The notes below the pieces were generated by a model, which was not told where the DNA came from, did not search any database, and saw nothing but the letters and a program-made list of their open reading frames with translations. 36,956 bases of DNA, taken from the NCBI GenBank assembly GCA_018650165.1, contig JABIGM010000053.1, forward strand, positions 1 through 36,956. The letters run 5' to 3'. This DNA is from Methanobacteriota archaeon (GTDB taxonomy: Archaea; Thermoplasmatota; Poseidoniia; Poseidoniales; Poseidoniaceae). Positions 35,617-36,956 of the stretch are shown here, in pieces (the first letter of the stretch is position 1; each line of letters opens with the position of its first letter). The translations under genes and the position numbers were made by a program.

Positions 35617-35685
35617 TGAGGAAAATTGTAAGGCATCAGACTCAATAAGTACAGACCATTGGGATTACAAGAGGAGGGAGAAACC

Positions 35686-36956
35686 ATGAGTGACGATACT
35701 GCAAATGTATCAATGCCAGAAGGCATTGAGGTCGATGAAGCAGCAGCTTATTTCGGTGTTTTCGAGTCTTCTGATGCCCTTCATCAAATGATGGAAATGT
35801 CACGCGAGAATGCATTTGAGAAGTTTTTCACGTTACTTTCTGACTTAGTTCTTCAGCCTGGAGATTTTGATTTTGAAATGGCAAGTGAAAGACTCTCTTG
35901 CGAAGGTGGAGAGATTTACTTCTTGGTTGCAGGACATCTTGGATTGATGTCCCTTCCCGAACAGTTGTCACTAGCAATTAGTGAAGGCCAATTTTCTGAT
36001 AGTGATTCGACCCAATTGCAAGATATTGCAGATCCTATGAGATTACTAAAATTGTTTGCAATTGCTCACCAAACCGGTGGGGGAGGCGAGACTGTAAAGT
36101 ATCTCAAAGGCATTGAATCACTAATGTCTAATCCTGCTGCAAATAAAGATGCCTTGCTCTCTTTAGCAAAAGAGGTTCAAGGTGCATTTGATGTTGCAGG
36201 ACATGTTACTCCAATTGCAAGTTTAGCAAGCAGTAGTGCTGTTGCAAGTGAAGTGGAAACAGCATATGTTCCACCAACACCTGTTGTTGAAAAATCAATT
36301 TCCAAATCTGTTCCAAAGGCTGTAGAGCCTGAACCAGTATCTGTACCTCTACCAAGTGCTGAGGAGTCAGTGCCACTTCCTGTTACAGAAGAGCCGGTAC
36401 CTTTGCCTTCCGAGGAAGCAATACCTCTACCCGATGTAGTTGAACCAGTATTAGAGCCCGATGTTCGTAAGGAATCAGAGAAAACCGAAGACGCATTTGC
36501 TGGAGCTTTCGGAATGGTAGAGCCGGAACCCGAACCAGAGCCTGAGCCAGAGCCTGAACCAGAGCCTGAACCAGAGCCTGAGCCGGAACCAGAGCCTGAA
36601 GCCGAACTCGAAGAAGCATTTGCTGCTGCAGATTTAGACAGCAGTGGTGGACTTTCAGTTGAAGAGGTTGCGCAAGCGACCGGATTAGGAATAGATGAAG
36701 CAGCAAAATTGCATGCCGAAGCAGATGTAGATGGCGATGGTCAAGTTACTCTAGATGAATTAAAATCCAAACCAGAAGTTATTGAAAAGATGGCACTGCC
36801 AAAACCGGTAAAGCCCATCCGTGGCGGTATACAAACGCCTCAAAATGCTAATCCTGCAGAACAGCAGCAACAGCAACAGCAACAGCAACAGCAACAGCAA
36901 CAGCAACAGCAACAGCAACAGCAACAGCAACAGCAACAGCAACAGCAACAGCAACA
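35686..36956 (+). CDS. Cytoplasmic Glu-Pro repeat, EF-hand and polyglutamine protein, 3' partial
   Basis: At least 423 residues run past the window end. The ATG at 35686 follows GAGGAGGGAG, the strongest Shine-Dalgarno in the window. There is no signal peptide or membrane helix, so it is probably cytoplasmic. Residues about 1-185 look helical and acidic with no recognised family. A Pro/Glu/Val-rich linker leads to an uninterrupted Glu-Pro run (bases about 36529-36602). An EF-hand pair follows: DLDSSGGLSVEE and DVDGDGQVTLDE, with the Asp/Asn/Ser and terminal Glu ligands in the 12-residue loop order. A basic-Pro stretch then enters polyglutamine that continues off the end. It starts 69 bases after the giant surface protein and may be cotranscribed, making it a candidate calcium-responsive partner of that protein's tail (inference). 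Confidence 0.8.
   Translation, partial: MSDDTANVSMPEGIEVDEAAAYFGVFESSDALHQMMEMSRENAFEKFFTLLSDLVLQPGDFDFEMASERLSCEGGEIYFLVAGHLGLMSLPEQLSLAISEGQFSDSDSTQLQDIADPMRLLKLFAIAHQTGGGGETVKYLKGIESLMSNPAANKDALLSLAKEVQGAFDVAGHVTPIASLASSSAVASEVETAYVPPTPVVEKSISKSVPKAVEPEPVSVPLPSAEESVPLPVTEEPVPLPSEEAIPLPDVVEPVLEPDVRKESEKTEDAFAGAFGMVEPEPEPEPEPEPEPEPEPEPEPEPEPEAELEEAFAAADLDSSGGLSVEEVAQATGLGIDEAAKLHAEADVDGDGQVTLDELKSKPEVIEKMALPKPVKPIRGGIQTPQNANPAEQQQQQQQQQQQQQQQQQQQQQQQQQQQQQQQ
36529..36602 (+). repeat. Glu-Pro dipeptide repeat
   Basis: About a dozen Glu-Pro pairs encoded by mixed GAG/GAA and CCT/CCA/CCG/CCC codons. The synonymous mixing suggests selection for the rigid, acidic polyproline-like rod rather than recent slippage. 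Confidence 0.8.
36862..36956 (+). repeat. CAG/CAA hexanucleotide microsatellite encoding polyglutamine
   Basis: After one extra CAG, the six-base unit CAA-CAG repeats without error to the end of the window, giving at least 31 consecutive Gln codons in the frame of the EF-hand protein. The window stops inside the repeat, so the true length is unknown and the contig probably broke here. Confidence 0.9.

Follow-up and report, generated by a model that had tools for sequence, protein, structure and literature searches.

The window, which is the whole stretch of 36,956 nucleotides that was analyzed, ends inside a gene for an adaptor-like protein with EF-hands that lies directly behind the gene for a large surface protein. 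The two genes contain the following features:

29497..35616, + strand: surface gene, 2039 aa, with a signal-like N-terminus, an FG-GAP region, DxDxDG loops, one membrane helix, a linker and a tail domain
35014..35082, + strand: predicted membrane helix of the surface protein, about residues 1840-1862 (19-residue Kyte-Doolittle mean up to 2.77)
35434..35613, + strand: C-terminal cytoplasmic tail domain, a predicted three-helix unit with the core ...ER.I.MQLQ.TGW.A.QSRAI...
35617..35685, + strand: intergenic gap of 69 bases (the spacing in relatives is mostly 57-98 bases)
35686..36956, + strand: adaptor-like gene, 423 codons and then the contig end
35713..36261, + strand: conserved N-terminal domain (N-domain) with nine predicted helices
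36490..36510, + strand: linker motif DAFAGAF, which fits the strict pattern [DN][AV]FxxxF
about 36519..36607, + strand: Glu-Pro repeat rod, whose length differs between species
36631..36666, + strand: EF-hand loop 1, DLDSSGGLSVEE (Pfam and loop pattern)
36724..36759, + strand: EF-hand loop 2, DVDGDGQVTLDE (Pfam and loop pattern)
36796..36822, + strand: LPKPVKPIR segment past the EF-hands, with L371, P372, P374, V375 and P377 invariant in alignment A1
36865..36956, + strand: (CAGCAA)n glutamine run at the contig end, an outlier in its pure length

The ATG at 35686 follows the surface-gene stop codon (35614-35616) by 69 bases, and its frame is open up to the contig end. A TTG at 35659 is an alternative, longer start; the alignment with relatives favors the ATG. 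Complete relatives of the adaptor-like protein are usually 474-560 aa long, and the named relatives of the gene come from Poseidoniales or Poseidoniaceae records or from records titled just Euryarchaeota, Thermoplasmatota or euryarchaeote. Alignment A1, which joins the window protein to 20 relatives with complete genes, gives the module order as an N-domain of about 190 residues, a proline-rich linker with DAF(A/S)GAF, a rod of variable length, an EF-hand pair, LPKPVxPxR, a glutamine-rich stretch broken by tryptophan and a C-terminal zinc ribbon. The sequence-only reading had placed an EF-hand protein behind the surface gene, and the gap, the two EF-hand loops and the Glu-Pro rod that it described are confirmed; the loops are canonical, and its polyglutamine corresponds to the CAGCAA array. 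Its label of the protein as cytoplasmic is consistent with the absence of a signal peptide and of a membrane helix (19-residue Kyte-Doolittle mean no higher than 1.2) from the window protein. Matches of the full proteins in NCBIfam (XopAW, ClfB, SslE and others) are far under the cut-off where one is given and track the EF-hand and Glu-Pro stretches, and the full profile, run against PDB sequences, returned EF-hand matches, mostly calmodulins, among the best 60 of 277. A phage origin was rejected because neither query protein has a match in PHROGs.

The glutamine run is a pure (CAGCAA)15 array of 92 bp that encodes 31 glutamines. At the other loci measured, CAGCAA runs reach at most 26 bp and glutamine runs at most 14 residues, usually with tryptophan breaking them up. 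Because none of these loci has an equal run, we take the length of 31 as an assembly effect, probably an over-extension by the assembler of a genuinely glutamine-rich stretch. The polyglutamine of the earlier reading is thus retained as a glutamine-rich stretch that relatives also have, and the pure 31-residue tract, an outlier among the loci measured, was rejected as a biological feature. The window protein lacks a zinc ribbon because the contig stops inside the gene. In the alignment, complete relatives end in a conserved C-terminal CxxC...CPxCG pattern, a probable zinc ribbon, that lies outside the window sequence. Zinc-ribbon profiles run on 21 members gave matches to DZR in 20 (best 2.1e-3) and to Zn_Ribbon_1 in 19 (best 1.4e-3), and the scores listed singly are below the cut-offs. 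Contigs of several assemblies stop within this gene, at 36865-36956 in the window and also at L041, L049, L050, L052, L055, L079, L101 and L105, and some of these breaks fall in its Glu-Pro or Gln repeats. Because of such contig ends, draft genomes often show the gene cut short or miss it altogether.

The upstream protein has significant Pfam matches to FG-GAP_3 (6.8e-10) and FG-GAP (1.5e-6), with three stretches each, and a pattern search finds 22 calcium loops of the DxDxDG type. Its hydrophobic segments are residues 11-32 and about 1836-1870. The cytoplasmic linker that follows is acidic at first and then rich in Arg, Lys, Pro and Gly. Conservation is high over the final ~50 residues of the tail but not in the linker preceding them. 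The tail domain has 16 invariant columns in the 28 rows of alignment A3, no match in Pfam and no PDB sequence match up to an E value of 5. In a model of the tail fused to the N-terminal part of the adaptor-like protein, the tail forms helices at residues 18-36, 41-50 and 55-66, with a pLDDT of 93-96 for residues 21 to 60 and 87 for the block 11-20. Among 243 genomes sampled from the phylum, the tail domain is present in 40 of 64 Poseidoniales and in none of the 179 others, and the corresponding counts for the N-domain are 38 of 64 and 0 of 179.

Profiles of the N-domain (alignment A2) and the tail domain (A3), run over the same 146 genomes, find both in 78, the N-domain only in five (all genus g5), the tail only in two (G112 and G115) and neither in 61. 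Fourteen of these 61 belong to family f1 and are mostly incomplete genomes where gaps are expected; the other 47 are in family f2. In all 78 genomes with both genes, the two are immediate neighbors on the same strand and keep one order, and the pair spans 14 genera and two families. The Fisher p value for the co-occurrence (1.9e-32) ignores relatedness and is therefore not a measure of the strength of evidence. The tail is encoded immediately upstream at 78 of 80 named loci, and at the remaining two a contig edge cuts the upstream region down to 91 and 57 bases. Named loci include AG-461-G23 and AG-333-I22, which we take from their names to be single-cell genomes, and finding the pair in such records speaks against a binning artifact. 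The downstream neighbor of the adaptor-like gene is typically convergent and about 375 aa in length, so the unit consists of two genes. As judged from these comparisons, the genes are a conserved two-gene unit of Poseidoniales (Marine Group II), the order from which the window comes, and the link to the upstream surface protein that the sequence-only reading had proposed, with co-occurrence in related genomes as its check, is upheld. No account of the pair was found in the open-access literature, a scope that excludes subscription papers and supplements.

The genes could instead be neighbors through inherited order alone and have unrelated functions. The flanks are also conserved, for example an upstream thiamine pyrophosphokinase-like gene (a label by sequence reading). 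However, both genes are present or absent together within family f2 except in G112 and G115, and the make-up of the partner changes where the receptor has been lost, which makes an accident of gene order scarcely credible. We rather give even chances to a reading in which the second protein is a dedicated cytoplasmic adaptor that would bind the surface protein and in which the calcium module is optional.

Genus g5 offers a view of the second protein without the first. In the g5 genomes L120 and L121, the flanks are in place and the thiamine pyrophosphokinase-like gene adjoins the adaptor gene, with the surface gene absent between them. Within g5, the surface-gene tail was not found elsewhere, and the head was found in 0 of 5 genomes. 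The adaptor of this genus keeps its N-domain and zinc ribbon and has neither EF-hands nor the AFxxxF motif in any of its four complete genes. On this comparison g5 has lost the surface gene, and receptor, EF-hands and motif are jointly absent; this loss counts as a single evolutionary event. Because g5 keeps the adaptor without a receptor, the protein should have some other use too. A second DxDGDG calcium-loop repeat protein with a C-terminal hydrophobic segment, encoded at 24199-26718 of the window, is conserved in g5 near the site of the missing surface gene (L120 4513-6966, L121 5751-8207).

The strict pattern [DN][AV]FxxxF occurs in 58/58 complete near relatives versus 0/4 complete g5 proteins. 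It is found in all 63 complete family-f1 genes for which the surface gene is seen (56 near relatives, two g2, one g6 and four g7), where in g2 the pattern picks up a shifted form, NVFDDAF, and it is found in two of five complete family-f2 genes. A motif that is kept with the surface gene and gone in g5 is a candidate docking site. In the fused model of tail and N-domain (pTM 0.51, without PAE), the motif is unstructured (pLDDT 58-69), and this model gives no evidence of docking.

The converse case occurs in G112 and G115, where the tail domain belongs to two other surface proteins. One of these is of the subtilase type, and the second is a calcium-loop repeat protein where readable (L123). The N-domain profile found no adaptor gene in either genome. 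These tail-domain proteins are located at L122 4605-8978, L124 3624-8000 and L123 2-979. The tail can therefore work without the adaptor, and it may be a portable archaeal receptor-tail domain.

Both cases bear on the possibility that the second protein serves the assembly or display of the surface protein, for example as a cytosolic chaperone or as a secretion or anchoring factor, and has no role in signaling. A dedicated chaperone would account just as well for the strict pairing and order, neither a zinc ribbon nor low-complexity stretches point specifically to signaling, and the surface protein, at about 2,040-2,230 aa, is very large. On the other hand, g5 retains the second protein after loss of the surface gene, and G112 and G115 have surface proteins with the same tail domain and no second protein. 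We consider such a factor unlikely.

The EF-hands themselves are well formed. EF-hand_1 matches the window protein at 1.3e-8 in two stretches, above the Pfam cut-off, and EF-hand_7 falls just short in the protein scan (29.6 bits, cut-off 30) and exceeds the cut-off in the genome scan. In each loop, position 1 is Asp, position 6 is Gly and position 12 is Glu, and position 8 is hydrophobic. The protein thus fits paired canonical 12-residue EF-hand loops, and the loops are conserved in relatives. A gene was scored as complete when it was closed, free of N-derived X and in possession of the C-terminal CxxC pair, which left out 29 of 103 genes; because this definition demands the CxxC pair, the presence of the zinc ribbon is not countable from the same set. 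EF-hands were scored by Pfam and a family profile, since the loop pattern alone misses loops in g2 and g6 (L128-L130) and in single members such as L110, L116 and L144, and the family profile overlooks the divergent g15 EF-hands (L139 and L141). The EF-hand segment is present in 58/58 complete near relatives, 2/2 in g2 and 1/1 in g6, and in g15 it is found by Pfam in L141 and by loop pattern only in L139. It is missing from the partner protein, with the surface gene kept, in g7 (0/4 complete), in g19 (0/1) and in one of two g17 proteins.

A partner of this kind had been called rare in archaea, and the census does not bear this out. In a search that scored a capped number of candidates per genome, EF-hand_7 matches occur in all 64 sampled Poseidoniales, with 1-17 matches in each, and in at least 12 of the 179 other genomes of the phylum. 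The host genome, which is 80% complete and comprises 66 contigs, has eight matches in seven proteins, including the adaptor-like protein. The other six are L002 (G000:C39:22379-22564), L001, L003, L005, L006 and L007; among them are a small calmodulin-like protein (129 aa at most), a protein resembling amino-acid permeases that has two EF-hands at its C-terminus and a membrane protein with a zinc ribbon, acidic repeats and EF-hands, where the permease and membrane labels are by sequence reading. Rare EF-hands as the defining feature of the protein were rejected on the basis of this census and of the lineages without them. The EF-hands of the partner are common but optional, and the conserved core appears to consist of the all-helical N-domain and the zinc ribbon rather than the EF-hands.

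If calcium were central to the pair, then the EF-hands would sense it as the core of an outside-in relay, like CIB1 on integrin tails. The EF-hand pair of all 58 complete near relatives and of g2, g6 and g15 is in line with such a relay, as is its disappearance together with the receptor in g5. Against it, g7, g19 and one of the two g17 representatives keep the receptor beside a partner without EF-hands, so calcium is not essential to the pair everywhere, and we regard the relay as unlikely. Of the calcium-linked partner in the sequence-only reading, the pairing with the surface gene therefore survives and the calcium link is weakened.

The N-domain is predicted by AlphaFold2 to form nine helices (pLDDT 84.8, pTM 0.80). 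Foldseek returned no match at E<=0.001 for this model or the fused model, and the best VIA Z scores are 4.7 and 4.2, respectively. A PDB sequence search with the N-domain found nothing below 0.37, and the Pfam scan gave weak scattered matches only, the best of which is HTH_ParB (1.7e-3, in 3 of 65 members). Residues 21-79 align with the HTH units of TetR, MntR/SloR and ParB at Z of about 3-4 over 40-54 residues. Together with the zinc ribbon, these HTH-like matches raise the prospect of a nucleic-acid-binding regulator that perhaps controls the operon. However, three-helix units are common, and a domain with a net charge of -21 is not read as DNA-binding; this identity is very unlikely. The N-domain is taken as an undescribed, lineage-specific helical domain.

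In the preferred reading of the second protein as a dedicated adaptor, the first gene would encode a surface protein that crosses the membrane once and combines a propeller-type FG-GAP head with a stalk of calcium loops and a cytoplasmic tail that ends in the small three-helix domain. The second would encode a cytosolic modular adaptor with a helical N-domain, a long disordered acidic linker bearing AFxxxF, a Q/W-rich stretch and the zinc ribbon, and in most lineages an EF-hand pair would be placed inside it. The adaptor could dock on the receptor tail through either its N-domain or the AFxxxF motif, and its zinc ribbon might connect the receptor to something intracellular. The EF-hands would then be a tuning module that some lineages can dispense with. 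That the two genes share a transcript, that the adaptor binds the tail and at which site, that calcium tunes the pair and which way a signal would run are all inferred.

The nearest working analogy, as distinct from membership, is CIB1 on integrin tails. According to the available part of PMC11900603, CIB1 of animals is an EF-hand protein of the cytosol whose binding site is the cytoplasmic tail of a calcium-loop, propeller-headed receptor, and the CIB family shares an architecture of four EF-hands. Both CIB1 and the adaptor-like protein are EF-hand proteins paired with a propeller-head receptor, with the contact between adaptor and receptor putative in the present case. Unlike the CIBs, the adaptor-like protein has two EF-hands, which several lineages lack, and it is larger and has an unrelated N-domain and a zinc ribbon. 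The surface protein resembles integrin alpha in its FG-GAP repeats with calcium loops, single membrane pass and short conserved cytoplasmic end. It differs in having three significant FG-GAP stretches, with a full set of seven integrin-type blades putative, another tail domain and a long DxDxDG stalk, and KxGFFxR is found past the membrane helix in 0/77 surface-protein sequences. The accessible text of PMC3192720 states that this motif is missing from some true integrins and also describes bacterial propeller proteins without a membrane segment.

A bolder version of the adaptor reading is a home-grown counterpart of adhesion complexes. Here, the propeller-headed, calcium-stalked receptor would use a basic, Arg-Gly-Pro-rich tail to recruit an acidic, multivalent scaffold rich in Pro, Gln and Trp, which would bring in further partners through its zinc ribbon and possibly form a calcium-tuned, membrane-bound condensate. 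We hold this to be distinctly unlikely. If it were true, archaea would have evolved a receptor system of the outside-in (or inside-out) kind independently of integrin-talin-CIB.

In the surface ocean, Poseidoniales rank with the most abundant archaea, and they had lacked cultured members (PMC6461757, in the part available). The strictly paired receptor and cytoplasmic protein would give a concrete pair with which to ask how they sense or hold particles, and an EF-hand protein beside an FG-GAP receptor would be a case arising outside eukaryotes. That g5 lacks the receptor, the EF-hands and the linker motif together singles out the parts of prime interest. The portion of PMC9258230 at hand describes modules specific to Poseidoniaceae and Thalassarchaeaceae that include calcium-binding domains, with signaling and protein-protein interaction suggested. 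These modules share calcium-binding domains with the present pair, and that portion mentions neither a gene pair nor a receptor, a tail or a zinc ribbon; the adaptor-like family may be an entry among its subgroup-specific families. Thrombospondin genes, which the available part of PMC6461757 reports as widespread in Poseidoniales and ties to cell adhesion, come there with no mention of a cytoplasmic partner. Flotillin-like proteins are mentioned for adhesion in what is available of PMC6336850, and the corresponding part of PMC4987107 has nothing specific to the Poseidoniales lineage. Elsewhere, the window encodes an M60/enhancin-type peptidase with He_PIG repeats that is open at the contig start (1-3813) and a large surface protein of the beta-helix/PKD/Ig type with a C-terminal hydrophobic segment and a short acidic tail (12278-16873).
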